The notes beneath the pieces are model-generated. The model saw only the letters and a list, made by a program, of their open reading frames with translations. It had not been told where the DNA came from and did not search any database. A DNA stretch of 64,000 nt from Zoroaster sp. YZ-2022 (Eukaryota; Echinodermata; Asteroidea; Forcipulatida; Zoroasteridae). A program made the translations under genes and the position numbers. Within the stretch, counting starts at the first letter, position 1. Each line of letters starts with the position of its first letter. Where the stretch lies: assembly GCA_029582265.1 (NCBI GenBank), contig CM055819.1:42851048-42915047 (forward strand), in the 5' to 3' direction. Below, piece after piece: positions 596-47,555 of the stretch.

Positions 596-1095
596 NNNNN
601 NNNNNNNNNNNNNNNNNNNNNNNNNNNNNNNNNNNNNNNNNNNNNNNNNNNNNNNNNNNNNNNNNNNNNNNNNNNNNNNNNNNNNNNNNNNNNNNNNNNN
701 NNNNNNNNNNNNNNNNNNNNNNNNNNNNNNNNNNNNNNNNNNNNNNNNNNNNNNNNNNNNNNNNNNNNNNNNNNNNNNNNNNNNNNNNNNNNNNNNNNNN
801 NNNNNNNNNNNNNNNNNNNNNNNNNNNNNNNNNNNNNNNNNNNNNNNNNNNNNNNNNNNNNNNNNNNNNNNNNNNNNNNNNNNNNNNNNNNNNNNNNNNN
901 NNNNNNNNNNNNNNNNNNNNNNNNNNNNNNNNNNNNNNNNNNNNNNNNNNNNNNNNNNNNNNNNNNNNNNNNNNNNNNNNNNNNNNNNNNNNNNNNNNNN
1001 NNNNNNNNNNNNNNNNNNNNNNNNNNNNNNNNNNNNNNNNNNNNNNNNNNNNNNNNNNNNNNNNNNNNNNNNNNNNNNNNNNNNNNNNNNNNNNN
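596..1095. other. Assembly gap of 500 N
   Basis: Exactly 500 undetermined bases, the usual placeholder for a scaffold join of unknown size. Nothing can be said about its content. It lies just outside the Polinton, whose left target duplication starts at 1204. Confidence 0.99.
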
Positions 1096-1209
1096 ATTAA
1101 TTGAGACTGTAAATCAATGTTTGAGTTGCGTTTTTGATTTCGGTAAAATTTTCTGTATTTTCATAAATATTCATTAACACCCTACATACCCAAATCAACA
1201 ATGTAGAGT

Positions 1210-1440
1210 AAAATATATAAATTACTGATCCGACCACAAAATGAAAAAAATGTATTTTTTTGATATTTTGATGTGTAGTTGGTAGGTTGGTAGGATCGTA
1301 TAAAAAAGTGGTTGGGTAGTAACAGGAGAGATTTAAGAGTTGGGGTGAATGACCTTTGACTGGTTAAAAAAGATATGTATTTAACAAAAATTCGAAAAAA
1401 CGATTTAAGATTGTGTTGTTGAATAGATAAATAGTGGATG
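1210..1440 (+). repeat. Polinton left terminal inverted repeat
   Basis: About 230 bp that reappear reverse-complemented at 18063-18372. The match runs from ATATAAATTACTGATC at the outer edge to TTGTTGAATAGATAAATAG at the inner edge. The polymerase start codon (1438) sits at the inner boundary. Confidence 0.93.
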
Positions 1441-4400
1441 GTGACAAAGTATTTATCAAAATGGACATTGATAAAATTGAAAGAATTTGTTGATCAACAT
1501 GAAATTTATGTTATGCGAGATAGTAGAAGGAATAAATACAATAAACGATCTTATTACGATGCAGTGAGGAAATATAAAAAAACGAAAAAAACCGCGACGA
1601 TTATATAAATTAAAATTATCTGAATTAAGAGAGATTATAGCTGGTGAAAATATTGAGTTACCTTACCGTGGTAGCGGGAAAGGAAGACGTTTATTAAAAA
1701 TAGACTACATGAATACTATTAGACGGTTTCGAGGTGTGGAAGAAGATTTAAAATTTGACAAAGTTGTTATTAATGCAGGAAGAAATTTTCGTGAACGAAG
1801 AATAATAGTTCCATTTAATCATACGAAAGAAAGCGATGAAAACATATTTTTAGCAGCTGTAAAACCAAAGATTATGGAAAAGTTAACTTTGGATAGACGT
1901 GAATTTAGAGGAGCAAAGTTTCGGATAAAATTGAAGTTGTATTTATAAAACTTGTTTCAGACGGTACTACGGTAGAAAAAACAGCTTATTTTTCTGGTGA
2001 TAAAAGTGATGAAATGAACAATGATTACGAGATTGCAGGTGGTTTATCACGAGCTTACGATATAATAAAAAAGCAAATAGAAGAATGGATTAATTAAATC
2101 TAGTTTTGAAATAGACCGTATTGTAAGATTAGATTATTATATTTGTAAAAGTCCTCATTTTAGAGGTGGTAAATTTATTGAACTACCACAATGGATACAA
2201 AATAAAGAAGCATGTATCAACATCAAAAACGACAACGATAAGTGCATACGATATGCATTACGTTGTGCATTTATATCTAGAAAATAAAGTGGTAGAAAAA
2301 AGAATTTAAAAAAATCCAAACATACTGTCTAGCTACCCGAGGGAAGATGGATTAAATGTTGATGGTATTAAATTTCCGTTTGAATTGAAACAAATTGAAA
2401 AACTAGAAAATCAAAATAATTTGATGATAAACATTTTTAGTTACGAAGAAGATAAAGAAGATTCGTATTTCCTTTACGTATTAATCAAAAAGAAAATAAG
2501 GAGGATAAACCACATATAAATGTATTATTGATTCGTAAATTTCTTGAGGACGTGAAGGAAACTATATCACACTACGTATATATTAAGAATATAAGTCGAT
2601 TACTTTCGCATCAGACAAAAAGGTGTAACGAAACATATTATTGTTTAAAATGTTTTCATGGTTTTACGAGAAATTACTTGTTAGAAGATCATAAAGAATA
2701 TTGTTTTGATTCAGAGTCTGCACCTTGTAAGGTGATAATGCCTCAAAAAGGTATTAATAATATTATGAAATTTAAAAATTATAATAAAGTGATGAAAGTT
2801 CCTTATAAGATATAATGCAGACTTTGAATGTATTATAAAAAAAGGATAAACATATCCCTTGTGGATATTACTACATTGTGGTGGGCGATGGTAAAGTAAT
2901 ATCATCATATGGATATTGTGGTTTAGATACAGTTGATCACTTTTTAGATAGACTGATCAACGTAGAAAAAGAGAATATCAATAATCTTTTAAGTAAATAT
3001 ATAAAAAGTATAAATCCGTTAAAAATATGATAATGACAGAACAAGAAAAGCGAGATCATAATGAAACAAAAAAGTGTTACATTTGTGGGTGGAAAAAATT
3101 TCACATTCTCGGTGAAAAATATTATAAAAGTGGTGGAAAATGTTATTGTTGGGCTTGCAAAAAAGAATTTGAGAATGAATTATATTGTATGAAAGAAGAA
3201 TATTTGAAAGAAAAAATCGAAGAATTTAAGAAAGAAAAATTTGAAGAATTAATAGAAGAATTTAAGAATCGATATATTAAAGTTAGAGATCATTGTCACA
3301 TCACAGGAAAATATCGAGGTGCTACGCATAGTGTTTGTAATGTAAAATTAAGACAAAAAAATTAAGATAAAAAATTATGATACTCATCTGATCATGCAAG
3401 GAGTGAGTTGTACAGAAGGAATTTTATACTTGGAAAAGTACATTATGTTTTCAGTTGATCAACTAAAATTTCTAGACACTTTACAATTTTTACCTTCTTC
3501 GTTGGATAAACTCGTTAAATCACTGGACGTAAAATCTTTTCACATAAGTAAATTACACGGACCCAATCCAAAAAAAGAAAGTTACTTTAATTAAAAAAAA
3601 GTGAATATCCTTACGAATGGACAAATAGTTTAGATAAATTAAATGTAAAGTGTCTTCCTCCAATAGAATATTTTTTTAGTAGTTTAAACAACTCACACAT
3701 TACAAAGGAATAATATAATCATGCAAAGAAGGTACGGAATACATTCGATTGTAAAACTCTAAAAGATTATCTGAATATATACGTACGTTCAGATGTATGT
3801 TTATTAGCAGACGTATTTGAATTTTTTTGTAAAACTAGCATGCAACATTATAAATTAGATCCTGCTCATTATATTACGAGTCCTAGCTTAAGTTGGGACG
3901 CAATGTTGAAATATACAAAGGTTTATTTAGAATTGTTTACTGATCATGACATGCATTTACTCACAGAAAGGGGTGTTAGAGGTGATTTAGTAATGGTGGG
4001 TAAGAGATATGCTAAAGCAAATAATCCTTATTTATATACGATTACGATCCATCAAAACCAACGACTTATATAATGCATTTAGATGCAAATAATCACTATG
4101 GTAATCAGATGAAAAAAAAATTCCGGTTTCAAATTATAAATGGTTAACTAGAGAAGAAATTTGTTCTCTCGATATAAAATCAATATCGCTTAACTCAAGT
4201 ATAGGATACATTTTAGAAGTAGATTTAGAATATCCTATAGAATCACAAGATACTTTAAAAGATTTTCCACCTGTGATAGAGTCGTTGGTGATAAAAAAAA
4301 AGAATGGTTATCACCGTATCAACTTGAGTTATTGGGTGACGAGCGCATGTCAAAAGAGAAAAAAATAGTTTGTAATTGTTTTAAGAAAACAAAATACGTT

Positions 4401-5804
4401 TGTTATTATTCAATATTACAATTCTATTTAGAACGTGGTATAAAATTGACTAAAATTCATCGTGGTTATAAATTTGCTCAAAAACCTTGGATGAAATCGT
4501 ATATTGAATTAATTAAATACGAATTTACGAAAAAAATGCAACGCCAGATTTTGATAAAGATTTTTTCAAACTGATGATTAATTCATGTTTTGGAAAAACG
4601 ATGGAAAATGTAAGAAATCGAGAGAATATAACACTCATGAAATTTAATGACGAAGAAGATGAGAAACGTGCGCTTAGATTGACTGGGAAGCCAAATTATA
4701 ATGCCTTTAAAATGTTTAATAATAATTTAGTTGCAATTCACATGAATAAACAAAAAATTACGCTCAACAAACCGATAGCTGTCGGAATGGTTATTTTAGA
4801 AAATGCTAAACTTGACATGCTCAAGTATTTTTATTTTTTTAAAGATAAATACGGCGACAAGTTAAAATTCCTTTACACAGATACGGACAGTTTTATTTTG
4901 GAGATTGAAACAGAAGACATTTATAAAGATTTATTAAAAGATAAGCATTTATATGACTTTAGTAATTATGATAAAGAAAAATGTTTATATTCCGAAGATT
5001 ATAAAAAAGAACCGGGTAAATTTAAAGATGAGACAGCTGGAATTGCTATTTCTGAATTTGTTGGACTAAGATCAAAAATGAAATCGGTAAAAGTATTGAA
5101 TAAATACACTAAACAATGCAAAAAAGTAGAGAAACAAAACACTGAACGACTCAAAAATGTATATTTTGAAAACAATGAACGTTTAGAAAAAGTATCAAAA
5201 ACTAAACGACTTAAAGTAAAGAAACAAAACACTAAACGTCTAGAAAAAGTAAAGAGTAAAAACAATGAACGAGTCGAAAAAGTAAAGAGTAAATACACTG
5301 AACGTCTAGAAAAAGTAAAGAAACAAATCAATGAACGAGTCGAAAAAGTAAAGAGTAAAAACACTAAACGAGTCGAAAAAGTAATGAGTAAAAACAATGA
5401 ACGATTCAAAAATGTATATTTTGAAAACAATGAACGAATCGAAAAAGTAAAGAGTAAAAACAATGAACGAGTCGAAAAAGTAGTGAAACAAAACACTGAA
5501 CGACTTGAAAAAGTAAAGAAACAAAACATTAAACGAATCAAAAAAGTATTAAATATATCAGAACTAAAAACTGCCAAGGGTGTAAAAAAACAAGTTATAG
5601 AATATGATCTTAAACACGAAAACTTTAAAAGTGTTTTATTTAACGATGACACGCTTTACTACAAAATGAAATTTATTAAAAATGAGGGTCATAATCTTTG
5701 GAGGAGAGAATTCATAAAAAAAAATGTTGAGTGCAAATGATGATAAAACATATGTTTTACCAGACAAAATAAACTATTACCCTCATTTTATACACATTTT
5801 TTAG
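1438..5804 (+). pseudogene. Protein-primed family B DNA polymerase (DNA_pol_B_2), decayed
   Basis: Polinton replicative polymerase, spread over several frames. In order: an N-terminal basic region from ATG 1438; a CxxC...HxxxxC zinc-finger-like segment near 2630-2700; an ADFEC exonuclease motif near 2820; a second Cys/His block at 3070-3350 (CYICG, then DHCHITGKYRG), as in recombination endonuclease VII-like inserts; palm motif A near 4080 (LDANNHYG); motif B at 4574 ([14 protein letters not shown]); and motif C, YTDTDS, at 4874-4891 with both catalytic aspartates intact. A tandem-repeat insertion (5120-5539) sits between motif C and the C-terminus. Frameshifts occur near 1560, 1935, 2815, 3365, 4070 and 5720, with further stops. 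The end overlaps the convergent integrase by 17 bp. Confidence 0.92.
5120..5539 (+). repeat. 33-bp in-frame tandem repeat inside PolB
   Basis: About 13 copies of a 33-bp unit encode 11-residue repeats with consensus [11 protein letters not shown]; variants include EKVKKQNTERL and [11 protein letters not shown]. Two copies are shortened to 9-10 residues. The array is open throughout, very rich in Lys, Glu, Asn and Arg, and lies between [10 protein letters not shown] and the C-terminal TAKGVKK segment. The spacing and charge pattern suggest an elongated or coiled-coil spacer. Confidence 0.93.
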
Positions 5805-6783
5805 GTGGATTTTCAGTATCTCTCGGTACAATTTGTAATTCTTCTCAACAAAAGACCTGATTCTAAATAACACAAGATAGGTTGATTTTGAGCTTTTGTA
5901 GTACTACTTAAGTTATAAATTTTAATACTCCATATAGGATCAGTTATTGGGTGACGTCTCGTATCTTTTTCAGCTTACCAGGTGCGTATAAATATCTAAC
6001 TAGTGAATTTAAAGCCATTCTTTTTTCTACACGATGAGTTGGTGAGGCTGGATTTTGTTCAACGAGTTGTAGTTTAATTGCATCTTCAGGTTTTAAATGT
6101 ATAAGTCTGTTTTTTCCATTATTAAGTGCTTTTACAACCAACGGTAATCTTTTACCCATTCTTCCGATCTTTCAGCATTATCAGCTCGCTGCATTTCTTT
6201 CGCGTATTGATGAGAAAATAATCTTTCGGCTAAATTTCTATTGACTCGTTCTACTATACCTTGCGCTCTATGATTACCAGCTTCGCTTCTTTGGATTTTT
6301 ACATTATTTTTTACTCATTAATACATTTACACTCGACATAAATTCTTTTCCCGGATCGACTTTTAAAATGTTTGACCAAGTTAGCGGAGAAAGTTTATAA
6401 TTTTTTTTCAAACGCGTTAGCGACTCCTGCTGCAGTTTAATCGAGCTTCTTTGTACCTACTGGCTTCATCAGAAACGCTTAAAACGTACATTTACGTAAT
6501 TTTATGTTTACCTCTACCGATCGTATCGTGAGTAAGAAACAATAAATCGGCTTGATGGTTTCACTGGTTTTTCTAAACTCGAGTTTGAGCTGGTTGGTCT
6601 AGGAATAATGGGTGGGATACGGTAAATAAATTTGCCACAGTGCTTGCTTTTTTATCCACTGTCGAACTATTGGTAGTGAAACTTTAGTTTCTTGAGCTAA
6701 TTTTTTAATCGCTGATTGACCTTTCCAATATCCTTTTGGACTATAATATACGTTTCTAATTTTTGTTTTGTACGTTTATCCAT
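5788..6783 (-). pseudogene. rve (DDE) integrase, decayed
   Basis: Retrovirus-like integrase that would insert the element into the host genome. It is read in pieces on the minus strand from ATG at 6781-6783. An N-terminal helix-turn-helix-like part (YWKGQSAIKKLAQE) is followed by the three acidic residues of the catalytic core: D in THDTIGRGKH, D in VDPGKEFMS and E in GIVERVNRNL. The C-terminal part contains VRYLYAPGKL and DPIWSIK. A stop follows KHKIT near 6505, and there are several one-base frameshifts. The reconstructed span of about 330 codons is the normal size. It is convergent with PolB, and the next minus-strand coding piece begins at 6785. Confidence 0.9.
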
Positions 6784-6784
6784 T

Positions 6785-6877
6785 TTATGTCAATGTAGAT
6801 TTCATAATACTGTCTGGTATTACTTGTTGAATTAACCAATCTTTAGTCATTAGCGCTAACCCGACCGTAGCTGTTAG
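6785..6877 (-). pseudogene. C-terminal part of a small membrane protein split by inversion
   Basis: About 30 codons (TATVGLALMTKDWLIQQVIP and on to a TAA at 6785-6787) with no start of their own. In related elements this segment follows a glycine-rich hydrophobic stretch and a KLDLKD motif. That N-terminal part is at 10749-10899 on the opposite strand, at the far edge of the inverted block. The protein itself has no known function. Confidence 0.75.
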
Positions 6878-6883
6878 TTTAAA

Positions 6884-7902
6884 ATGAAGGGAAATGAAAT
6901 TTTTAGTTTAGACGATGCAGACGTGTTTAATTGTTACAAAGATGAGTGGTTGACGAAAGACCAACTCGAAAATTTAGCGTATCAAGGAATTTCAATACCT
7001 AATATAACTAGATTAAGAATAGGTGCTAGTGGTAGTGATGAAACGGCTAACCAAGGAAAAGACAAAGCCGTCGCAGATTGTTTGAAAATTAGATATCACA
7101 TTCCACTTGATTTTGAATTATTGACTGATCATCAAACCTATTATCAATCTGGGATCGGAGATCGGTTGACCTACGAACTCACGTTTAATAAATGGTCTAA
7201 TGTGATTAAAAGTTCCGACGATAATGCTAAATACATCATAAGTGGAATTTCTTTAGAATACGAAGTCGTTCATTCACCACAGCTCTCGCAAATGATTAAA
7301 CAACAATATGATGACAAGGTGACAATATTATTTGATAGAGTATTGAGACAGAGTGTGACATCGTTAAAAAAACGTGATACAACGTGGAATATAAATATAA
7401 ATACACCCGCAAGAAGTATGAAAGGAATATTGTTTTTATTCAAAGAGCCTGACGAAAAAGATCCTTGGAAATTTTATAATCCAAACATCGATAAAGTTTC
7501 GATTACTATTGAAGGAGTTCCCAATCAACTCTACGCGCAAGGAATGCGGAGGTATCAACACTGGGAAGAAACTCAAATATATTTTTCAGATTCGAAAAAA
7601 ATAATTTAGTATGCGAGTAACCAAAGATTTAAATGTATCCAATGTGAAACAAGCCGATTATTTACATGATAGATACGATTTGTTTTTAGATATGAGAACC
7701 ATTGATGACAATAAAATGCATGGAAGCGGAAGACGAGTACAAAACTTATCCGAAGGAATTACCATTCAAATGGATAAAGAAGCGGAAACCGGCGGTGCAT
7801 TATACTTGTACACATAATATTATTATGGATGCGCAACTCAATATTGTAAAGGGACGATTTCATTCTGTGATATACCGTATTAATTTGTTCACAAATTATT
7901 AG
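6884..7902 (+). pseudogene. Probable capsid protein, C-terminal three quarters
   Basis: A 241-codon open frame (GNEIFSLDDADVFNCY, IPLDFELLTDH, RLTYELTFNKW, IEGVPNQLYAQGM) is followed by further coding in two other frames to about 7902 (RYDLFLDMRTIDD, then IMDAQLNIVKGRF). The ATG at 6884 is an internal Met, not the true start. The N-terminus lies at 11840-11564 on the other strand. The predicted whole would be roughly 420-430 residues. Size, beta-rich composition and the packaging ATPase next door make it the best candidate for the major capsid protein, but that identity is inferred, not shown by a motif. Confidence 0.7.
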
Positions 7903-7912
7903 AAGCGATATA

Positions 7913-8533
7913 ATGTTACCGAAATATCCACACGCCGCATTAATTTGTGGACAAACTGGATGTGGAAAAACATAATTTGTTTTAAATTTATTGGAAAAAG
8001 AATATTGTAAATATTTTGAATATATCGTCGTATTATGCCCTACCATCTCGGTAAATCTCACGTATCAAAATAGAAAATGGATTTGGAACGATGAACGAGT
8101 GCACGTTGATGATCTGAGTGTGACGTCATTAAATAAAGCGATACAAATTTATAGCGATGTATTCAAAGGAGACGAAACGTTGTTTATTATCGACGACTGT
8201 AGCGCTAGTAAAGAATTACAATATAAAAAATACGACGAGAATAATAAATGTATGATTACTCAATTAGCTTTTAGCGGTAGACACGTTAAACACAGTTTTT
8301 GGATTCTTTCGCAAAAATATAACACCGTGTTAAAAAGTTTTAGAGAGCAACTAAAGTGGGTGTGTCTATTTTATTGTAAAGATAGAGACTCGTTTGAAAA
8401 TTGTCTTCGAGAAAATGATGTTATACCGACGAAAGAGTTAAGAATGCAAATGCATGAATTACTCAAAAAAGTCAAACATAGCAAGTTAATTTTAAAAACA
8501 GATCAACCTACTGATTACGCAATACTTGACTAG
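7913..8533 (+). pseudogene. A32/FtsK-HerA-like genome packaging ATPase with early stop
   Basis: P-loop ATPase expected to pump element DNA into capsids. From ATG 7913 it has a Walker A motif (GQTGCGKT), Walker B (TLFIIDD, followed by CSAS) and a downstream motif in FSGRHVKHSFWILSQ, all typical of the A32 family of Polintons and large DNA viruses. A TAA at 7973-7975 directly follows the Walker A threonine. The remaining 180 codons are open and intact. About 206 residues is short but usual for this lineage. It follows the capsid-like gene by about 10 bp and would lie on the minus strand without the inversion. Confidence 0.88.
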
Positions 8534-8700
8534 AATACGTTGCGTCTTGCTCCAGCAGAGCTTGCACATGCTGCGCCGATGTAGAATACGTAGCGTCTTG
8601 CGCCGATGTAGAATACGTAGTAGGTGACTTATTAAATTGCTATAGGTGACTTATTAAATTGCTATAGGTAATATAATACTTTTTAATACAAAAATATAAT
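8534..8700 (+). repeat. Short tandem and dispersed repeats downstream of the ATPase
   Basis: Contains three copies of a unit around TAGAATACGT(A/T)GCGTCTTGC, then two copies of TAGGTGACTTATTAAATTGC. The TAGAATACGTAG motif recurs in the coding tail near 13810-13980 on the other side of the element, as part of a microrepeat family of this Polinton. Confidence 0.75.
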
Positions 8701-8717
8701 ATAATATATAGATAAAT

Positions 8718-8921
8718 ATGTTCGTCGAATGTTTAGTTGGATTTAGTATAATAACAAATATTTATTTTCATCTCTGTACCAGTTACTACGTGGAAGATAA
8801 ACTTTTACGCGTTAAAAATGATTTAGTAAATCATCTTCATTGTCTTGAAAAAAAACATTATATAATAAAAATGTTATCGAAGAGCCTCAGCTGGAGCAAG
8901 CTGAAGCAACAAGATATATAA
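8718..8921 (+). CDS. Small Polinton protein with N-terminal membrane segment
   Basis: 67 codons, open from ATG. Residues 1-22 are hydrophobic (FVECLVGFSIITNIYF), then a charged helix-like part with KxxL spacing. It starts about 20 bp after an ATATAATATATAG tract like those before other genes of the element. The tail overlaps a CAGCTGGAGCAAGC microrepeat also found at 10450. No family was recognised. It may be real because of its position in the gene series and its intact frame, but a degraded remnant cannot be excluded. Confidence 0.5.
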   Translation: MFVECLVGFSIITNIYFHLCTSYYVEDKLLRVKNDLVNHLHCLEKKHYIIKMLSKSLSWSKLKQQDI

Positions 8922-8930
8922 AAAAATGAG

Positions 8931-8938
<8 letters not shown>

Positions 8939-8996
<58 letters not shown>

Positions 8997-9181
8997 TATA
9001 TTATATATATAAATAAATTAAATCGGGAGGGTGGCCTTAGCTTTCGATCCAATCCGGACCTTCATCAGAGGCTTTGACAAAGTACAACATAAAAACTCAT
9101 CCATTTATAGTGACAAGGGATCCAAACAAAGGCGGGAAAATAGTGAACAATTAAAGGGGCGATTATTGAGCCACACAATAT

Positions 9182-9270
<89 letters not shown>
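8939..9270. mobile_element. Dispersed repeat inserted in the Polinton, flanked by (TA)n
   Basis: Two long (TA)n tracts (8939-8990 and 9184-9270) bracket about 180 bp that match the sequence at 35490-35690 in the host gene's intron (CTTTCGATCC, CCGGACCTTCATCAGAGGC, GGCGGGAAAATAGT). The last bases, GAGCCACACAATA, also match 37245-37315. It therefore belongs to the host's interspersed repeats rather than the element. On the minus strand it contains CTGATGA and GAAA separated by a short stem (9042-9068), resembling a hammerhead ribozyme core. Confidence 0.75.
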
Positions 9271-9275
<5 letters not shown>

Positions 9276-9277
<2 letters not shown>

Positions 9278-9650
9278 GTCTATAGTTGATTTATTGCATA
9301 TAGTTGGTTTTAAAATTAATTATTGCATTTTAGATGCAATTAGATATTGTTTAAATAATAAAGATTGAATTAGAGAACATCTAAATGAATATGGTAAAAT
9401 ATATTTAGATAAACTTAATGAATGTCTAAATGAGAAAGATAGTATTAAATGTATAGATGAAATTATACAATTTATAAATAACAAAGAGGGTAAATTTGTT
9501 TGTGAACTTAGAGAAAATGTTTTTTGGAACGATGATGAAGCGGTAGCTCACGTAGCTGATGAAGCGGTAGCTCGCGTAGCTGATGATGAACTTAAAAAAT
9601 ATGTAAATAAGAAAGATGGACTTATTGAATTTATAAAAAAAATTGATTAA
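9276..9650 (+). pseudogene. Unknown 125-codon Polinton protein, one stop
   Basis: ATG 9276 to TAA 9648-9650 in one frame, with a single TGA at 9366-9368 (after NNKD). The product is a mostly helical charged protein (LDKLNECLNEKDSIKCIDEI). It carries a duplicated segment, DEAVAHVADEAVARVADD, encoded by a microrepeat that recurs at 13896-13925 in another gene. The length suggests a recent loss of function, or readthrough. No homologue was recognised. Confidence 0.6.
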
Positions 9651-9688
9651 ATTTTTTATGGTATATATATATACCATATATATATAAA

Positions 9689-10309
9689 ATGGAAGAAGTT
9701 GCAAAAATGTTAAACGAAGAACCAACAACACCTGCTACGCAATCTATTGAACAATCATCACTACAATGTGCTACGCAATCTAATGAAAATCAACGCAACA
9801 ATCGACTTTTTGCTGTAGTTGCTGGAGGAAACTCAAAAAAAAATTGGTAAAGAGTATTCTGTCAGTGAAATTGAAGCCATAAATTTAGCAGATCAAGATA
9901 AATTATACACGTAATATGAAGCTAAATTAGGTCACGAAATGATATCTTCGTTAGGTAGCTCAATTCTAACTCTATATGTAAAAGGATTAGAATCGAGTTT
10001 AAACTATATTGATTTGATGGGATATCATTTTGAGATCGATGACAAAGGTGAATTAATTACAGATTTAGAAAAAGACCGATTAATTTCGAGCGCTCTTTCT
10101 TCCATAATTATTATGCGAAATATACTACAACTATGGAAATAATGTTAGCACTGATCGCAATGACGCTAATTACAGCGAAACATTTAAAAAGAAAATATTC
10201 TTTTTTAGATAATAAAGACGATGGAGAGCAATGTACAATCAGAGGAAAAGGAACATGTATCATCAATAAACCAAGTGACGAAAGCGCAGAGTCTACAGAC
10301 GAAAAATAA
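9689..10309 (+). pseudogene. Conserved Polinton protein of unknown function, frameshifted
   Basis: Begins at ATG 9689, right after a TATATATAAA tract. A Gln/Thr-rich N-terminus with CATQS-type repeats is followed, after a frameshift in an A-run (about 9832), by EYSVSEIEAINLADQDKLYT, a stop, then YEAKLGHEMISSLGSSILTL and on to about 10140. A further shift leads to MEIMLALIAMTLITAKHLKR and the stop at 10307-10309. The DQDKLY...YEAKLG block is recognisably conserved in related elements. The hydrophobic stretch at 10133-10180 may be a membrane helix. Function unknown. Confidence 0.62.
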
Positions 10310-10700
10310 ATAAAAATCCAATTAGAGTTGCAGCTGGTAAAAAAGTCGCGGAACTTAATAAAAAGAATAAACAAAATTTAAAAAAGAATAATGACGTAAC
10401 ATTTTTAGAAAATTTACCCAACAACAACAATAAATCAAGTGACGAAAGCTCAGCTGGAGCAAGCTTTGCTGGAGCAAATACGTTATATATTGTGCTAGGA
10501 GTAATAGGTTTAATGGGTTTAGGTATTACATTTACATTTACCGCTCTAAATCTGTTGATCTCGACCTCGAAGAACCATCGACAATAAGCAATATTGTAGA
10601 ACCGTCTCCAAATATTGTTGAACCATCTACAATAAGATCAGTCGAGATCAATGAAGCATCACCGCCAAAACAAGAATTTAATGTTTTTGAACTGGAATAA
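10306..10700 (+). pseudogene. Single-pass membrane protein, start codon lost, one frameshift
   Basis: The coding frame opens with ATA at 10306, where an ATG is expected (INKNPIRVAAGKKVAELNKK). The basic N-terminus is followed by a Ser/Gly linker with SAGASFAGAN, a 21-residue membrane segment (LYIVLGVIGLMGLGITFTF) and, after a frameshift near 10537, an acidic Pro/Ser tail (two copies of IVEPS) ending at TAA 10698-10700. Short basic-plus-TM proteins of this kind accompany related elements; their role is not established. Confidence 0.62.
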
Positions 10701-10731
10701 AAAAATAATAATAATAACATTTAAAAAATAT

Positions 10732-10751
10732 TGTCTATACTATAAAATATG
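10732..10751 (+). promoter_or_regulatory. 20-bp motif directly upstream of a start codon
   Basis: TGTCTATACTATAAAATATG, ending in the ATG of the gene at 10749. The identical 20 bases end in the ATG of the capsid-like gene at 11838 on the other strand. A TATA-like element so close to the start codon suggests a short-leader promoter. Confidence 0.6.
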
Positions 10752-10899
10752 TCTATGATAGATACAAAAAAAAATCGTTAATTCAGCTTATCATGGAGGA
10801 CTCGTAGGAATTATAACCGTTGTTTATAGCATGATTGGTAAAAAAGTCTTAAAAATAAATCCGGCTGATTTGGGAAAGCTAGATTTAAAAGACGCTCCG
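10749..10899 (+). pseudogene. N-terminal part of the small membrane protein split by inversion
   Basis: ATG 10749, then one extra base in an A-run, then IVNSAYHGGLVGIITVVYS (probable membrane helix) and KKVLKINPADLGKLDLKDAP. Coding stops making sense at the 647-bp insertion (10900). The matching C-terminal part is at 6877-6785 on the minus strand. The right side of the insertion (11547-11557) still carries a few more bases of this gene before the inversion junction. Confidence 0.75.
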
Positions 10900-11546
10900 G
10901 TGCATGGTCGCAATATAATCACACGAACACATGATGGCACTAAATCATTTAGTACGTTTGAATAGCGTGTAAAACGTTCATATAGGGGTACACAATCCCT
11001 TCTCAAATGGTGTAAACAGACTTATTGAGTCCCTCTAGACCCAAGAAAACAATTTAAAGCCAAATAATTATAACGTTTTATATGGGTGCCAGCCCACAAT
11101 CCCTTCAAAAAAAATTGTTACCCAAAACCAATTTTTTTGCACATTTTTTGCACTGCTGACATTCTACAGAGAAACCAAGAGATTCTATTTGTCTGGCCAT
11201 GCTAATACCCACAACCAGACCTCAAAATAAACATATCAGGTTGCCGGTATGTCTGGGCCATGAAAGCAAGTGCCAGGATGACTGATTACATTGGGATTAG
11301 TGCGGTAAGATCAATGGATGACATCTGTACAGTTCCAATGGGTTGTCTGCTGGCAAGGGGGGGGGGGCCTTACTTTGAAAGCTGCTGCATACCGGGTCAA
11401 TGGTTCACCCCAGGTTGAATTTTGTTTACCATGTTATCAGGCACTGTATCAATAGAGAACTTATGCAAAGTGGCTGAATTTGAGTTTTCAATGACGTAGT
11501 AAACAACAATTGTTTACAAAGGGACTAAATCAAATAGCACCATGCA
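10900..11546. mobile_element. 647-bp non-coding insertion at the inversion junction
   Basis: Flanked by the direct repeat GCTCCG (10894-10899 and 11547-11552). The ends are short inverted repeats: TGCATGGT at 10901-10908 against ACCATGCA at 11539-11546, with imperfect similarity further in. It contains no long open frame. Its base composition differs from the AT-rich Polinton; it includes a G-run at 11357-11367 and a short palindrome ACTAAATCATTTAGT. Probably a non-autonomous DNA transposon; the superfamily is not clear because the duplication could be 6 or 7 bp. Confidence 0.72.
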
Positions 11547-11563
11547 GCTCCGCAGGGTTTTAA

Positions 11564-11840
11564 TGGTTATATTTTTTACGATAGTTCTGCCTATATTATA
11601 TACCAACGTTCTTGCTTCATCGCTCGAAGATTCCAGCGTAATGTTAAAAGCTAATCTAACCGTACCCGGAACGATAACATCGTTTTCTCCTAAATTTGGA
11701 AAACGAACCGGCAGCAATTGATTTTCGGTGATTGTGCTCGGATTGTTTGTAATGACAACTTTTTGACGCGTTCCTTTTAAAGCAAAACGTTTTCTTAATT
11801 TTCTGGATGGATTTAGTTTATCTCCGTATATGTTATTCAT
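11564..11840 (-). pseudogene. Probable capsid protein, N-terminal quarter
   Basis: Starts at ATG 11838-11840. The frame encodes LNPSRKLRKRFALKGTRQK, NNPSTITENQLL, RFPNLGENDVIVPGTVRLAF and NIGRTIVKNITIK; after this the sequence crosses the inversion junction and reads 14 unrelated codons to a stop at 11514. The continuation is the plus-strand frame at 6884. It is divergent from the gene at 11911, with about 70 bp between the two starts. The capsid assignment is inferred, as stated for the other half. Confidence 0.72.
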
Positions 11841-11857
11841 ATTTTATAGTATAGACA
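11838..11857 (-). promoter_or_regulatory. Second copy of the 20-bp start-codon motif
   Basis: Reverse complement of TGTCTATACTATAAAATATG, identical to 10732-10751 and again ending in a start codon, here that of the capsid-like gene. After correcting the inversion both copies would point the same way. Confidence 0.6.
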
Positions 11858-11910
11858 TTATATTTTATTTTTTTAATTTTGTAAAAAATGTTTACTAAAT
11901 TATAAAACAA

Positions 11911-12372
11911 ATGGCATTGGCATCGATTGGAATGATGGTTTTTGGTGCTATAGTAAACGCGGCAGCTTTTATCTGGAGGAAATGTGACAGCTTCTCTCAT
12001 TTGTAAAAATAATGATGCGGAAATAGAACGAAAGAGGCATGATTTAGCGCTAGAACAACTGACGAAAGCGAGAGACGAATGGTAAAAATGCGTGAAAATA
12101 TCTAAATTTTTAAAACGAACAATTACAAAAAGAAGCGAAAACTAAACAAACTTTTAACGATATAGACGAAGTGATGAATGAATATTATAACGTTACCGGT
12201 AGACAATTTGATTTGCCAAAAGATTTAAAAAACGAACCTAAACTAGAAGATTTTTATACTTCGAGCGAAGATCAAAAAACCAGAGAAATTTTATTTATTA
12301 TTTTGGGTATGAAGATAGTAGGTTACGCGAGTTATAGGGGCCTTCATTATTAAAGAAAAAGATAAAAAGTAA
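11911..12372 (+). pseudogene. Conserved helical Polinton protein with terminal hydrophobic segments
   Basis: ATG 11911. MALASIGMMVFGAIVNAAAF is hydrophobic. After a frameshift there is a charged helical section (ERKRHDLALEQLTKARDEW) with a stop and another shift near 12085-12125, then MNEYYNVTGRQFDLP, LEDFYTSSEDQKTREI and a C-terminal hydrophobic helix (ILFIILGMKIVGYAS). The in-frame stop at 12351 is probably secondary; another frame runs to TAA 12372 with a basic tail. The order (TM, coiled coil, YTPS-like motif, TM) is conserved in related elements. Function unknown. Confidence 0.68.
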
Positions 12373-12379
12373 TTGTAAA

Positions 12380-13677
12380 ATGGCGGAAGGAAGGCACGAT
12401 TATATGGAGGCGGATCCGGCTTATAATTATCCTGAAGAAGAACAAGAAGAACAAGAACAAGAAACGGCTATTGATCAATATATTGATGATAATATTGATT
12501 ATAATATTGAAGATAACCACTTGGGTAATGTTCCAACCTCTGCAGAAACACCCCAGCTAAGTGCGAAAAATAGATTACGCAAAGATATAGTAGATGCTTT
12601 TTATAAAAGTTTGAGATATGAACCAGCTTTTAAAGACTATAATAACTTCGTGTATGAAAAAGAAAAACCAACAGATGAATATAATTTACTCTATTATATA
12701 AAAGGTTCAGAAAAAATACGACTATCCAGTAAGTCCAAAAAAGGTGGATTTATAAAGTTAAGTGGAATACAAGGCTTATCTAAAGCTGATTTAGGTATAT
12801 TCGATGATGAATCACCACCTCTTCTCTCAAAAGAAAGTACGAGTGCTTTAGAAAATGTTATTAAAGAGATAGAAACTAAAGATGTAGAAACTCAAACAGA
12901 AACTCAAACAGAACCGAGGCGAAAGTTATCACTTACACCGAAACAACTCGCTGAAAACAATTTTAAAAATATCAACTGCCATCAAAGAAGTAAATACCGT
13001 TATTTCAAGAGAACAAGAAACTCAAACGAGTATACAATATATAAGATAACTTATTATCTCTTATCGCTAAAAAGAACGCAGCCACAAAAGCGCGCGAAGA
13101 AGCTGAAAGAAAATACGTAAACGCTAGAGATCAAGATGATGAAGATACTCAAGTAATCGCGAAGCTACGTGAGGAGATGAATAAAGCGCGAGATAGAGAA
13201 CGAGGTTTGTTAGCGGAAATAAATGTAAGAGATAACATTCTTCGCAGTCAAATCAACAGAATTAAAGAAACGATCGAAAAAATGATGAAAATAGACGTGA
13301 CGTTACACGAAATTAAAACTGTATTTAGGTGTCACGATAGTCAGTTTATTAACGGCCATTAGTATGACCATCGCTTCTATCGTTTCAACGATCGCAAGTG
13401 CTGTAAAACCGACGCCTACCCCACCACCACCACCACCACCTCCCCCGAGTAACGGAGGCGTAAAAGACTGGATACAAAAACTTTTAAAAATCTAGCGAAT
13501 TTGCTAAAGAAACTCGGAGCAAAAGCTTTGGCCGCTTTAACGGGTATTATCGGATCGGTAGTAAGTTGGATATTTACCACAATTTCAAAAGTAGTCGGAT
13601 GGGCGACGGAACACGTGTGGCTAGCCTTAACCGGTGTCGGAGTTTTAATGTTAACTTATATAGAATCTCGTAAATAA
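12380..13677 (+). pseudogene. Large coiled-coil and membrane protein of the Polinton
   Basis: ATG 12380, 8 bp after the previous gene. An acidic Glu/Gln-rich N-terminus is followed by a conserved block (LRKDIVDAFYKSLRYEP, LSKADLGIFDDES), QTET repeats, and a long coiled coil (REEAERKYVNARDQDDEDTQ, then LRSQINRIKETIEKM). Next comes a hydrophobic helix (TIVSLLTAISMTIASIVSTI), a poly-proline run of nine (13418-13444), and a C-terminal membrane part (VVSWIFTTISKVVGWATEH) ending at TAA 13675-13677. At least four frameshifts (near 12965, 13050, 13325, 13490). About 430 codons when intact. A structural or membrane-remodelling role is possible; none is proven. Confidence 0.72.
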
Positions 13678-13694
13678 TATAAAATTAAATCTCG

Positions 13695-15273
13695 CTAGGT
13701 CAACAACTTGTAAATCACCAAACCTAATCCGGTAAGTATGTCAAAACCGAAAATTAAAGCATGTTTTCATCTTCGTGAGTGTCTTGCGTTATATCATCAT
13801 CATCGTAAACTACAGTAGCCGATGTTGTAGAATACGTAGTAGAATACGCAGTGGATACATCGCTCGCTTCTGCTTGCAAAGCATCTTGAGTTATATCATC
13901 AGCTACGCGAGCTACCGCTTCATCATCGTTAACTACAGTAGCCGATGTTGTAGAATACGTATAGTAGAATACGTAGTAGGTATAGTTGATGTTGTAGATT
14001 GTGTAGCAGATTTAGGATCGGGTTTAATTAGTACCGAAGCAACTTTAGTATAGTCAGACGGTAAAACATAGGAAAATGGTGACGAATTTGTCTCTTGATT
14101 TAAACCAATTGATAAATCAGACGTCGCGACTTTAATATTATTGTTGTATCCATCGTATATACCTATACGTAAATTCATATCACTCGGCATCGTGTATAAA
14201 TATTCTCCTATACACATGTTTAATTGCAATCTCACGTCATCGCAAATATTTTGATATAAATTGATAGAGTTTTGATAGAAACCTTCTTCTGAATAATTGA
14301 TGAAAGCTTCGAGATTAATACTAAAATTTCTTTTTGCATTTAAACCTGTACCTGGTGTAAGAATCCCACTTTTAGCTTGCGCTTGACCTCCAATTATAGA
14401 GATAACGTACGTTCTTATAGAATCATTGATTCGTTCTATACCACTATCCGTAAAACCTTGAGCTAATTCAGACTCGAGTATAAATTTTACCCAACCTCGT
14501 TCGGTTTGTGGAGATTGTGAAATATAACCGACTCTAATGGTATGTTCTTTACGATTATGTACACCGTCGTCAAAAGCCATTCTTTTTTTCACCCGTTCCA
14601 ATAACGTTTGCAGGAAGGTGGTAATAGGGATCAGTACTCTTGAGAGTAATAGGTTTAGGTGGTGAATCGCTGATGATACTCGTATCATAGCTGTGTCCGG
14701 GTACCGGATCGTATATTTTACCGATGTTCCGCCAAAAATGAGCGGTGCCTAGCCCATTAGTGTATGGATCCATTTGTTGTTTCCAATTAGATACTGGTGA
14801 GAGGTGAAATTCATTACATATTTCATTATACGCCTCAATGTCAACAACATTTTCAAACGCACTCCAATCATTTTGAAAAGATGTAGGACAACTCATTTCT
14901 TTGAGTAATCGTCTAATTTGATAATAAACGTGAAATCTAAAAAAAACTACGAATCATCGGATCCGAATGAAACAAATGTTTATAACTCACACCGCAACCT
15001 GTCGTACTGCACCACGTTACAACATTTATCTGATTTTGATAAAACTTTAGCGGACTAGTATTCCAATCATTTACAACATCGTCGCTATGAACGTTAGGTA
15101 ACCTATAATTTTCAAAAGGATTATAGAGTTCTACGTTAAAAAAACTCATTTTCGTTAAGGTAAATATTCATATTTGTCAAATCTCTCGCACTAAAAATTT
15201 CAACGTGAGTAAAAGTCCCACGTTGCGGATAACGTTTTGATAAATTGCTCTGAAATGCTAATGGAAATGGCAT
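13695..15273 (-). pseudogene. Conserved ~525-residue Polinton protein with C-terminal membrane anchor
   Basis: Read from ATG 15271-15273. Pieces in order: LSKRYPQRGTFTHVEIF (frame closes at 15136), then PFENYRLPNVHSDDVVNDWN and VVTWCSTTGCGVS (15149-14937), a shift, then FQNDWSAFENVV and onwards (14896-14570), a shift, then the long segment GWVKFILESELAQGFTDSGI, RINDSIRTYV, AKSGILTPGTG, MCIGEYLYTMPSDMNLRIG. A low-complexity Thr/Ser tail built from TAGAATACG-type microrepeats precedes a membrane helix (FDILTGLGLVIYKLL) and the stop at 13695. The 14570-14580 overlap of two frames is a frameshift, not two genes. A minor capsid or other virion protein is possible; function unproven. Confidence 0.75.
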
Positions 15274-15307
15274 TTTATTATTATATTATAAAAATATAAT
15301 AATAAAA

Positions 15308-15993
15308 ATGTATCATACGTTCGAAATAAAAAAATTAATTAATACAATTTCATTGAATAATACGATCGATAATCGAAACGGTAAACTCACTATTTCGTTA
15401 AAGAGCATTAACATTTGGATCGGTTACTATAACGTGCGTAAACAATAAAAAATATGGCGATGGAAAAGCTGGATAAATGAACAAAATGAGGAAGACATTG
15501 TAGAGTTTATCGAACCTGGACTTTATAACATTAAAGAAATTATCGACATTGTTATTAAAACACACCTTGGATTACATTTATCGTCGATGAAAAATCTGGT
15601 AAATCTATTATAAATATTACTTTGGAAAAACGAAGAATCAAATTTTCATCGGGATTAGCTAATTTACTCGGATTTCCGAATGAATATCTAGCTATGGGAG
15701 AGCACGAAGGAAGAAGACTCGATTTGCAACCTTTTAAAATAATGTACATTCATTGCGATCAAATTTCTACGAGTGAAAACTTTTACGACGGTAAACCTTG
15801 TACTATTTTAAACGTTGTTCCGGTACAAGATAAATCGTTAGGAGAAAGTATGTGGATAGAATATTCTAATCCGTTACAAAAAAATATTAAAACTGGTACG
15901 TTTAACGAATTGACTTTTCAAATTAAAGATTCATTAGGTAGAGATATAAATAATCATGGTATGCCTATTATTTTAACTTTAGAAATTAAATAA
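15308..15993 (+). pseudogene. Conserved Polinton protein, probable beta-rich structural protein
   Basis: ATG 15308 follows a TATTATAAAAATATAATAATA leader. The N-terminal part (KLINTISLNNTIDNRNGKLT) has a stop near 15448 and a shift near 15575. From 15622 the frame is open for 123 codons (FSSGLANLLGFP, PFKIMYIHCDQISTSENFYD, ILNVVPVQDKSLGE, RDINNHGMPIILTLEIK). The C-terminal half is well preserved, with strand-like alternation. Related elements encode the same protein; its function is unknown. It is divergent from the gene ending at 15273, with an AT-rich 34-bp spacer holding both starts. Confidence 0.7.
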
Positions 15994-16019
15994 TTATATA
16001 TATATATAAATATATAAAT

Positions 16020-16511
16020 ATGGCAAGTATTTACGGTCCTAGTCGAAGTCGACCTCAAAGAAGCGATAGCACCAGCAACGTTATACATCAACAACAGCAA
16101 AATCAGTACATTTACGAGCATCATGGCTACATCGATAGAGATTAAATTTTACAAAAGATACCTTTAGTCCAACAATTTAACATTATAATAGGATGGCACG
16201 GCACGTTTAAACTACCCTTTTACACGTTTAACGATCCACCAACATATTGTGAAATTTTTACAAAATTTATGAAACACGGAGAAATTTTTTCACATTCGTC
16301 AACGGGTAATTTTGCCATTGATGTATATTATATTCCTTCTCCAGCTCGAGGAAAAACATTTGTTTTCAATGATAATTCGCAACATGTAGATTTTGAATTG
16401 TGCTTTCAAATGCGAGATAATAAAACAGTTTTTGTACAAGCGACTTTTTTGGGTTCTTTAAACGCTAAAATCTGTTTCAATATAGAAATTAAAAGTTTAC
16501 CGTTAACATAA
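16020..16511 (+). pseudogene. Paralogue pair member 1, unknown, one in-frame stop
   Basis: 164 codons from ATG 16020, interrupted only by TAA 16143-16145. Begins MASIYGPSR; the C-terminal half (HGEIFSHSSTGNFAIDVYYI, VFVQATFLGSLNAKICFNIE) looks beta-stranded. The gene at 16532 has the same start (MASIYGPSR) and a matching end. The leader is a TATATAAATATATAAATATG tract shared by both copies. Confidence 0.62.
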
Positions 16512-16531
16512 TAATATTTAAATATATAAAT

Positions 16532-16989
16532 ATGGCTAGTATTTATGGTCCTAGTCGTAAAAGCAACAATTATAACGCAAAAAAAAATCCACTACGTTTT
16601 TTTATCTTGAACATACTGGACACATTGAACCGAGCGAACTTTTACGAGAAATAAGATTTTTTTCACAACCAAGAAACAAACTTACAAATTTATTGGATTA
16701 GCCATTCAAATACAATAAGTTTTTTGGTTAATGGTGTTATATTTTATTCATTATATGCAAAAATGAATATGGGCGAAAATAATTCTTATTCTATAGTGAA
16801 AAGTGAAAATTTTGGTGATATTATATCAATTTCGCCGAAGGAAATAATTTTTCTTTTTCAAATGAACCTCGATATTTAGAATGTGTATTATGCTACGTTC
16901 CATATAGAAGATATAATCTCAAAATATATATGCAACTAAATTTTTTCGGCGCTTTAAACACGGGAATCTGTTACGATATAACAATTTAA
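16532..16989 (+). pseudogene. Paralogue pair member 2, unknown, frameshifted
   Basis: Starts 20 bp after member 1 with the same MASIYGPSR. Later pieces in different frames align with member 1: EHTGHIEPSELLREI to EHHGYIDRD, and LNFFGALNTGICYDITI to ATFLGSLNAKICFNIEI. At least three frameshifts. The pair therefore arose by tandem duplication inside the element and then diverged strongly. Confidence 0.62.
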
Positions 16990-17052
16990 AAAATTCCAAT
17001 TCTACCTTTAGTTTAAAATAACAAATTATAATCTTGTATTATTAATAGAATA

Positions 17053-17622
17053 ATGAGTGTCTCTGCAGAAACAAACAAACTTTATCCCTCTATACCATTG
17101 TATACCAGCAATGATAATATAGAAAATGTTAACGCGTTTCGTTTGCAAAAAATCCACGATATTCAAAAACAATTACGATCAGAAAGAAACGAACGCGAAA
17201 GTGTATATAAAAAAATATAATAAAATCATCAAAACTTGTTCCATCGTAGAAACGATGGCTGAATTGGGCTGCATGGGAGCAGGAGCCATCGGAATCGCCA
17301 GCATCGCTAGCGTTGTAGCATCCCCGGTTGGATTTATACTAGAAGGACTAGCTTTAGGGTTAGGGGGTGCGGCGTTTGCAGTCAGATACGCTACCGCTAA
17401 ATTGTTAAAAAAAGCTAAAAAACACAACGAAATAAAAGTTTAGCAGAAAGTAAACTTAATACCATCGAAAACCATGTTTCAAAAGCGATTGAAGACTGTG
17501 CGATTAGCCAAGAAGAATTTCTTTTAATCTGTGAAGAGCGAAATAAATTGTGTCGAATGAAAGAAAACATCAGAACTAAATTTAAACCTGTCGATGTCGA
17601 TAGTAATAAAAAAAAGATGTAA
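17053..17622 (+). pseudogene. Conserved Polinton protein with glycine/alanine-rich hydrophobic core
   Basis: ATG 17053. The N-terminus (LYPSIPLYTSNDNIENVNAF) and a basic helix (LQKIHDIQKQLRSERNERES) are followed, after a frameshift near 17210, by a 50-residue Ala/Gly/Val-rich hydrophobic region (GAGAIGIASIASVVASPVGF, ALGLGGAAFAV). After a second shift near 17440 a helical C-terminus (HVSKAIEDCAISQEEFLLIC) ends at 17622. Two hydrophobic helices with a helical tail suggest a membrane protein. The arrangement is conserved in related elements; function unknown. Confidence 0.68.
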
Positions 17623-17695
17623 AACCCATCATTGTTGACAAAGATAAAGGAAAAAAAAAGATCTCATAGAAAAACATTTAAATTTTAAGTAAAAT

Positions 17696-18065
17696 TTACC
17701 ATAGAATGATCACACGATAAAAAACACCTTTGCAATTATCAGCGGAGCAACACACTTTGCGACCTCCACCGTATACTTTTTATTTCTAACAACTCTTTCA
17801 TCACACGATTAAACAAACGTATAGATTTACCTTCAGCAAGCTTTAAACTTTGCATATCTTTGCACATTTTGTACATAAATTTATCGATGTTTTTTGTACC
17901 CTTTTTACATCTTCGACATAGAACTGACATACTTTTTCCACATCAAATTCGCCACTCATGTGTGCGCAATATTCACCCCCTGGTACGCTAAGTATACAAG
18001 ACTTGTCCGTTTTTCCAACTAATAGCCATTTACATGGAACGATTACTTAACAATTTCTATTTTCC
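17696..18065 (-). pseudogene. Right-end minus-strand gene with Cys/His cluster, decayed
   Basis: Starts with an ATG at the inner edge of the right terminal repeat (18063-18065), mirroring the polymerase at the left end. Fragments in different frames: a Cys/His cluster (PCKWLLVGKTDKSC, then GGEYCAH), MSVLCRRCKKGTKNI with a CxxC pair, a helical stretch, and a Cys-containing end (VCCSADNCKG). A small zinc-binding protein is the best guess. The frames are too broken to name a family, and the extent is approximate. Confidence 0.45.
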
Positions 18066-18372
18066 ATACTATTTATCTATTCAACAACACAATCTTAAAA
18101 CGTTTTTTCGCAATTTTTTTTAATACATATCTTTTTTAACCAGTCAAAGGTCATTCACCCCAACTCTTAAATCTCTCCTGTTACTACCCAACCACTTTTT
18201 TATACGATCCTACCAACCTACCAACTACACATCAAAATATCAAAAAATTAATTTTTTTCATTTTTGTGCTCGGATACTTTTTTATACCAACCTACCAACC
18301 TACCAACTACACATCAAAATATCAAAAAATACATTTTTTCATTTTGTGGTCGGATCAGTAATTTATATCTTT
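18063..18372 (-). repeat. Polinton right terminal inverted repeat with internal duplication
   Basis: Reverse complement of 1210-1440, but about 80 bp longer. The block containing GTTGGTAGGTTGGTAGG and TTTTTGATATTTTGATGTG is present twice in tandem on this side and once on the left. The inner edge again coincides with an ATG, of the minus-strand gene at 17696-18065. Confidence 0.92.
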
Positions 18373-18378
18373 TAGAGT

Positions 18379-18946
18379 GTTCATGATCATCCGTGGCAAC
18401 CGTTCATTTTGAACAGGTTTAATTGAATTTTCATTTGTTAGTGGTAAATACTAGATTTTTGATACTGTAAAACATTGAATAATATTGTTTTTATGTTTAA
18501 CTTACAAATGCTAATCTGGACACAATTTAGTAAAGTGAACACTTCAAATGCATTCTGGGTAATCCAGTATGGCCGCCATTACGTTAAAATATAATAATAT
18601 ATTAATTTGTTGCTCATTTTCATGATTTTTGTTTTAGCTTGTTGAGGTCAATATCTTCAATTATCGTGCTTTTGGTATAAAATGACCCAAAATTGTGATC
18701 TCAAATAATATTTTAAATACGAGCAATCACTTAGACAATGCTATAAGCGGCGGTGTGCCATTATATTGGGGAATTATACCAAAAACATGCATATTCACAG
18801 ATAGGCTATACTCAAATTAAAGGCACTTCAGTTGTTGTAATGGATAAAAACAGTCTCAAGAAAACCTTTAAACAAATTATGAAAATGGTTTTAAAAAATG
18901 GTTTTTGCATATCAACGTAACGAAGGCCATGTTAGCTTCCCATTAT
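18379..18946. other. Host non-coding flank
   Basis: AT-rich sequence between the Polinton's right target duplication and a SINE. No open frame with splice sites and no repeat related to other parts of the window was seen. Confidence 0.6.
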
Positions 18947-46108: not shown

Positions 46109-47555
46109 ACTTATAATTTAAAATTAAATATAAAAAGTCCCAATTTGAACAAAATGAATTTTGGTGTGTTGTTTTACCCGTAACTTAAAAAAAACCTTGG
46201 ATGATATTATTTGAATAAATTTAATCATGGACATGTTATGTAATGAACCGCAAACCTATGATGGCGGTCGCGTCATGAGCATGAGTTGGTCGGAGTACGA
46301 GTTGACCTGTTTCCGTATGTTACATTAACTGTTACCTTTCAAACTTAAATTAAAGATAAATTAATAATAATAATACAATTAAAATAATGTACCTCATCAG
46401 TTGACGATGATAAAGGAACTTCTGTGCTGTCAGAATCTGAGATCCTGCCATCTTGATTCTAAAAAGCTGATGGCGGAGAATGGCTAGAATCACAGAAAAT
46501 TGAATCATCATCGTCGTCATGATCTTCAATACTGACAACAATGTCATTTGATGAATTAGGCCTAGCCTGGTCATGATTTTCTGGCGTTTCTGGTATCACC
46601 TCATTGACCTCCACTGCTACTGAAGTGACTGGCACAACAGACATTTCCTCCTGGGTGATAAGACTGGCATCACTACCATTAATGTCCGATTCTGAATCGG
46701 CTGAACTCGACAATCCTGAACTCGAGATGGTCTGGAGTGGCACTGCCGTTGGCTGAAGCCGAGGAACGCGAATGGGAACTCCGTCATTAGAACGATGGTG
46801 GTGTAGACCGCTGACGAGATCATTCTCGGAATCCGAACTCGTGTCTAAAACATTTGGCCTAACACTTCCTAACGTCCTCTTCCGATTATTTCGATAGCGT
46901 GTTCTTCTTGGAACTGATACAGTTTTGTTAGGTTCTAACTGCTCCCACAAGTATGATTTAAGGGATCTTTTCATTGAGCTATTTTTGGCCATACTCGTTC
47001 AACGCGGTACAAGTTGGTAATTAAAGGACGAGTTGGCACCATGCGTACGGGTACGGGTACTGATGCCCACTCCGTCGTCACCGACGACAATCGGCGCGCG
47101 TACATACGTGAGTGGGAAACGCCCAGTACCAGTGAATTCAACCTTGTTTTCACGGTTTGTGATCCCACTTATGGAGACGAGGTTGCAAATAGACGAGTCG
47201 TGTCACGTTAGGAAAGGATTTTAAGAATTACATTGTCGTAAGTCAAAATAGATTATCCATTAACAATAAAATAAGATCCTAATTAACATGTAATAATTAG
47301 GGAATGATAAACGTGTAGTAAAAATAATGTTTTCTCAATATTATTGGTGTATAAGATAAAAATAAATGAAACGTCAGCAATACTAAACGTCGTAGTCAGC
47401 CAATCAGGACTTAGCGCGCCAGCTGTGAATGAAATGTAAGGCCGGTCAAAGCGTCGCGTCGCGTCTTGAACCACCATTTTCACATACTCTGCCTACAAAC
47501 AGCATTGTCGAATTTTTTGTGATTTAAATTTACTATTATTAGTTCGTATTTCGTC

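Follow-up and report, generated by a model that had tools for sequence, protein, structure and literature searches.

The stretch of DNA analyzed in this study, hereafter called the window, comprises 64,000 nucleotides from the sea star Zoroaster sp. YZ-2022 (contig CM055819.1 of assembly GCA_029582265.1, C4:42851048-42915047 in our numbering). It carries a Polinton-like element which spans positions 1209-18374 (about 17.2 kb end to end) and in which two genes, encoding the major capsid protein and a small protein, are each split into two pieces on opposite strands. A miniature inverted-repeat transposable element (MITE) lies beside one of the capsid pieces. The features involved in this arrangement are, in the order of the window:

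6797..6880, minus strand, C-terminal piece of the small-protein gene (P0121 residues 51-77, E=7e-07; P0122 residues 45-73, E=3e-07)
6878..6881, left inversion junction, the join lying inside a T run of 2 bp or more that is common to both sides
6878..7606, plus strand, C-terminal piece of the major capsid protein gene (best E=7.5e-79 among relatives)
6879..6882, TTAA beside the capsid C-terminal piece, one copy of the target-site duplication (a single TTAA is present in 9 of 9 intact copies read)
6879..10897, inverted block, containing the capsid C-terminal piece, the ATPase, small genes and the small-protein N-terminal piece
10774..10893, plus strand, N-terminal piece of the small-protein gene (P0121 residues 9-48, E=1e-14)
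10897..10898, right inversion junction, where the small-protein piece is joined to the MITE without its last 7 bp
10898..11559, putative TTAA-type (piggyBac-like) MITE in the capsid gene, a high-copy repeat that stayed with the capsid N-terminal piece
11558..11843, minus strand, N-terminal piece of the major capsid protein gene, matching the same relatives as the C-terminal piece
11560..11563, TTAA beside the capsid N-terminal piece, the other copy of the target-site duplication, adjoining the intact MITE end

An earlier note on this DNA had proposed that two genes, one capsid-like and the other for a presumed small membrane protein, are cut in two and that one inversion accounts for both. Protein comparisons supported both cuts. 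The capsid C-terminal piece used as query yielded 340 relatives, 120 of which were listed. In 118 of these 120 both capsid pieces aligned to one protein, and in 111 of the 118 they overlapped by exactly 2 residues on the relative. The N-terminal piece of the small protein found two relatives, P0121 and P0122, and in both of them the two small-protein pieces fell on adjoining residues with a 2-residue gap. The 120 capsid relatives on the list included Mytilus edulis as the sole named organism, and a search for relatives in viral contigs or phage records gave no confirmed match.

An identical 14-base word, TGTCTATACTATAA, was noticed just upstream of the small-protein gene (10732-10745, plus strand) and of the capsid gene (11857-11844, minus strand). 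This is perhaps a candidate for a shared promoter. In a control allowing up to 2 mismatches, at least 2 matches were obtained in 22 of 100 shuffles.

Genome searches covered the 1.0-Gb assembly with its 616 contigs. The capsid family gave 2,596 first-look candidates, and 150 of them, the window copy and 149 others, were scored. This gene family is very large: counted by hand, roughly 104 of these 150 copies had an open frame of at least 400 residues. The relative orientation of the capsid pieces was determined in 34 of the 149 others, a non-random sample made up of the 19 best copies and 15 copies with short frames. In all 34 it was opposite to that of the window. The homology switched at exactly window position 6879 in 32 of the 34 copies, and at exactly 11558 in the same number. 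Gene order was compared in 19 copies of the same genome, each with 9 kb of sequence. Capsid gene, ATPase and small-protein N-terminal piece lay on one strand in all 19, and on that same strand were the small-protein C-terminal piece in 16 and the integrase in 17, which were the copies where these were detected. L002 and L003, which are closest to the window copy in their capsid DNA (tree distance about 0.06), lack the inversion. Compared with 34 other copies of the same genome, the window copy is the only inverted one.

These data give base-level support to the proposal that one inversion explains both split genes, and the gene order of the 19 copies agrees with the expectation that the unflipped block puts the ATPase and its neighbors along the integrase strand. 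A check for both forms among other copies of the family, suggested in the earlier note, returned 34 of 34 uninverted and the window copy alone flipped, which favors the one-off rearrangement among the outcomes envisaged there. The block was originally given as 6881-11560 (4.7 kb). The flip was confirmed; its extent had to be revised, as the inverted piece covers 6879-10897 (about 4.0 kb) and 10898-11559 is the inserted MITE.

The segment 10898-11559 is a repeat of non-Polinton sequence with 605 first-look candidates genome-wide, 40 of which were scored. MITEs of the piggyBac (TTAA) type are characterized by a TTAA target-site duplication and short inverted ends, and the window MITE resembles them in both features; the superfamily label itself is a putative one, suggested by the TTAA flanks. 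Short terminal inverted repeats were seen in L058 and L059, whose ends read AACCCTGCGG... and ...CCGC(A/G)GGGTT, and TTAA stood at both sides of the family ends in 2 of 4 copies read. Of the 38 other MITE matches that were scored, 16 continued leftward across the TTTAAAA word as far as query base 54 or 55, by a hand count that gives indirect evidence. Judged from sequence features, the TTAA target-site duplication, the short terminal inverted repeats and the high copy number all point to a MITE. An origin as unrelated templated filler was rejected, since TTAA adjoins the MITE on the capsid N-terminal side and also stands on the separated capsid C-terminal piece. The MITE entered before the inversion took place, since each end of the inverted block now has one of the two target-site copies.

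This duplication also clarifies the sequence words at the block ends. The claim that TTTAAA/TTAAAA occurs at both breakpoints holds for both sides of the capsid cut, since this cut contains the TTAA target-site duplication of the MITE. It fails for the small-protein cut, whose site is CTAAAAC, without TTAA, in 5 of 6 copies read; the sixth, L023, has unrelated sequence. Words of the types TTAAAA, TTTTAA and TTTAAA occur 116 times in the 17-kb element.

Searches with the left and the right junction, and with a 601-bp flank, returned 40 scored places each. None of the 39 other scored matches spanned the left junction. By hand count 38 covered the capsid side only and 1 the small-protein side only; an inverted copy of equal similarity would score above these half-matches. 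The right junction was fully spanned at 2 of the 40 places, namely the window and C4:42789062 (98%). Its two sides share almost no overlap, and at the small-protein break about 2 bp were lost relative to the nearest copies.

The second of these places lies on a contig (C4:42789048-42851642), 73 kb away, that carries the same right junction at 98% and the same host flank. Window positions 18366-18735, almost wholly host flank, matched this second contig at 361 of 370 bases, and for the 601-bp flank only two full-length matches were found among the scored places, one in the window and one on the second contig. The divergence between the two is about 2.5%, ranging from 2.0 to 3.7% across five segments outside the MITE. 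Runs of N were found at window 596-1095 (500 N) and in L055 (348 N seen, C4:42788700-42789047). They bound a contig repeating the locus, which is likely to be a haplotype that was kept and joined in tandem into the scaffold. The second contig is likely the other haplotype, and the two contigs are most simply regarded as two haplotypes side by side, local duplication being the alternative. Beyond the right flank, L061 matched the window at 30832 (97.9%) and at 54607 (93.0%). L062 and L063, used to test whether the second contig remains colinear, had matches of a repeat-like, non-colinear kind only, and probe 46440-47040 was a repeat with 19 matches, none of them on the second contig. Since the right join is present on the second contig together with the same host flank, the inversion probably predates the split of the two contig sequences.

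Probably, the arrangement results from a MITE insertion followed by an end-joining inversion in one frame-broken provirus. The sequence itself shows the MITE insertion with its TTAA duplication, the inversion, the order of the two and the fact that two contigs carry the right join. In a first step, a TTAA-flanked MITE entered the capsid gene and left TTAA copies at 6879-6882 and 11560-11563. In a second step, one break would have occurred at the far MITE end with a loss of 7 bp and another inside the small-protein gene, which compared with the nearest copies has lost about 2 bp. Rejoining of the intervening segment in reverse would have followed, with a microhomology of 2 bp or more at one join and hardly any at the other. 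We infer end joining of two breaks as the cause of the inversion, which is likely a scar in a frame-broken provirus and not a reversible switch.

Several observations weigh against this account. Between the two contigs, the MITE has 2 differences in 654 aligned bases, compared with 25 in 957 for three flanking segments (Fisher p=0.0002; two further flanking segments, with 17/490 and 14/700, were left out of this test). Local gene conversion, which possibly took place here, would explain the low divergence of the MITE, whereas a simple shared history without it does not predict this. Furthermore, the left junction was found on one contig only, because the second contig starts after an N run at window-equivalent 10816, inside the small-protein gene. 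A clean TTAA was present at both MITE ends in only the 2 of 4 copies mentioned above, and L057 had it at neither. The copies in the orientation census were the best-scoring and short-frame ones of the 149 rather than a random choice. Finally, the trace expected from end joining resembles the one expected if a template had been switched during replication.

The MITE may also have driven the flip. A TTAA transposase supplied in trans would have cut one MITE end, and repair of this aborted excision together with a second break would have turned the capsid block. We put this forward tentatively and consider it rather unlikely. If this is true, small transposons would be a force of the host genome that takes integrated viruses apart in two ways, by inserting into them and by inverting parts of them.

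A wrongly joined contig, with the inversion absent from the organism, would produce the same map. The stretch is hard to assemble, as seen from the 500-N gap at 596-1095 and from the N run preceding window-equivalent 10816 on the second contig, and only one contig supports the left junction. However, gaps lie at neither junction, the two copies of the target-site duplication are separated by the block, the T run at the left join is common to both sides, and the right junction occurs on two contigs about 2.5% apart. The last point weakens the assembly error that had been considered as an alternative in the earlier note. We regard an artefact as improbable, and the inversion is probably not an assembly accident.

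Template switching during replication of the element, before it landed at its present site, might likewise have created the inversion. The short microhomology at the left join fits such an event, and one study reports Mavericks whose modules are oriented differently in some vertebrate lineages than in others (PMC8097293). In this case, however, no second host site with the inversion was detected among the 40 places scored per junction, and we consider this origin very improbable.

Ectopic recombination between two inverted MITE copies, as documented for Galileo in Drosophila, would be in line with the presence of a MITE at one junction and with the abundance of its family. It is highly improbable and was rejected, as there is one MITE only and the small-protein side has neither TTAA nor a MITE end. 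Galileo inversions, according to the accessible portion of their description (PMC2775673), carry the transposon at both breakpoints together with exchanged target-site duplications. The least probable explanation, a switching structure in which a site-specific recombinase reversibly inverts the segment and turns the capsid and small-protein genes on and off, could draw on the simultaneous cutting of two genes and on TGTCTATACTATAA preceding both gene starts (though at 10732 and 11857, away from the block ends), but was rejected because all 34 other copies examined have one orientation, the target-site duplication of the MITE accounts for the TTAAAA words, the joins have lost bases, 0 of 39 other scored matches span the left junction, and exact inverted matches between the two block ends, taken with 100 bp around each, reached 7 bp at most, no more than at random places of the element (5-11 bp, most often 8, in 188 random pairs). 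The hint of such a structure in the earlier note is therefore not upheld.

Apart from the inverted block and the MITE, the following features were assigned to the element, the ATPase lying inside the block:

1209..1435, plus strand, left terminal inverted repeat, pairing with 18068-18374 (arms 94-98% complementary)
1568..5740, plus strand, frame-broken polymerase-like region (putative pPolB, a label taken from motifs only)
5944..6314, minus strand, integrase remnants (rve_3 E=0.004 for 6132-6314, below the cut-off)
7976..8533, plus strand, predicted packaging ATPase piece, Pox_A32-like (PF04665 E=2.4e-05, 24.4 bits against a cut-off of 22.8)
18068..18374, minus strand, right terminal inverted repeat, pairing with 1209-1435 and carrying a tandem duplication of about 80 bp

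With terminal inverted repeats at both edges and a size within 13-25 kb, the element has the outer structure of a Polinton/Maverick. A possible 6-bp target-site duplication, read by eye, has TAGAG on both sides (GTAGAG / TTAGAG, 5 of 6 bases matching). The tandem duplication in the right repeat (18194-18355) appears to be absent from the second contig. Pfam and PDB searches with the polymerase-like pieces that were tried gave no support for the label, which is therefore a tentative one. A counterpart of piece 4517-5000 was detected in 17 of the 19 nine-kb copies, each time on the strand opposite to the capsid gene. The end of the polymerase-like frame (5071-5548) contains internal tandem repeats with many Lys, Glu and Asn codons. 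For the putative retroviral-type integrase, position and strand were the same in 17 of the 19 copies, again those where it was detected. The PF04665 match argues for an A32-type packaging ATPase. Near-identical segments of 31-35 bp in inverted orientation were seen at 9528-9587 and 13895-13930.

The identity of the capsid protein was addressed by structure comparison. A model of the capsid relative P0001 was submitted to Foldseek, and all 50 listed matches were viral coat or scaffold proteins, with 140 matches at E <= 0.001. They included proteins of PBCV-1, Faustovirus, mavirus, SGIV, vaccinia (D13) and PRD1, with a best E of 3.2e-11. The double jelly roll is a fold which we take to be common to these proteins. 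The quality of the model is moderate (pTM 0.51), and TM-scores by query length reached only 0.33-0.49. A first capsid model (10 sequences, pTM 0.41) was left unused. The Capsid_N profile matched with E=0.00011 to 0.0035, below the cut-off. On the basis of this model of moderate confidence, the gene may be counted as encoding a double-jelly-roll major capsid protein as in Polintons/Mavericks.

Our analysis turns a puzzling arrangement into ordered events at base resolution, namely transposon insertion, inversion, and then divergence of two copies of the locus, and it removes a false lead, that of invertible Polinton segments. No mention of such segments was found in the titles, abstract starts and term counts of the papers listed. 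Given the very large Polinton family, a comparison of many copies could show how frequently proviruses are broken by passenger transposons.

Both components of the event have precedents in print, as far as the available parts of the sources go: transposon-generated inversions (PMC2775673) and differences in Maverick module orientation (PMC8097293). The inversion in the window is a well-resolved fresh instance and ordinary in kind. Galileo inversions of Drosophila buzzatii are described, in the accessible text, as having a transposon copy at each breakpoint, chimeric copies and exchanged target-site duplications (PMC2775673). The window shares with them a DNA transposon at an inversion breakpoint. 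In contrast, it has a single MITE, which is 7 bp short and lies at one breakpoint, and its joins resemble end joining. Vertebrate Mavericks/Polintons, in the part of the study at hand, measure about 13-25 kb, have terminal inverted repeats and carry capsid, ATPase and integrase genes in conserved modules, and 96% of their loci are eroded by mutation (PMC8097293). Our element is similar in size class, terminal inverted repeats and these three genes, the integrase in the form of putative remnants. Module orientation differs in cane toad and Xenopus tropicalis (same source). Those differences are arrangements of intact elements, whereas the inversion described here concerns one copy, and the ends of its block cut two genes.

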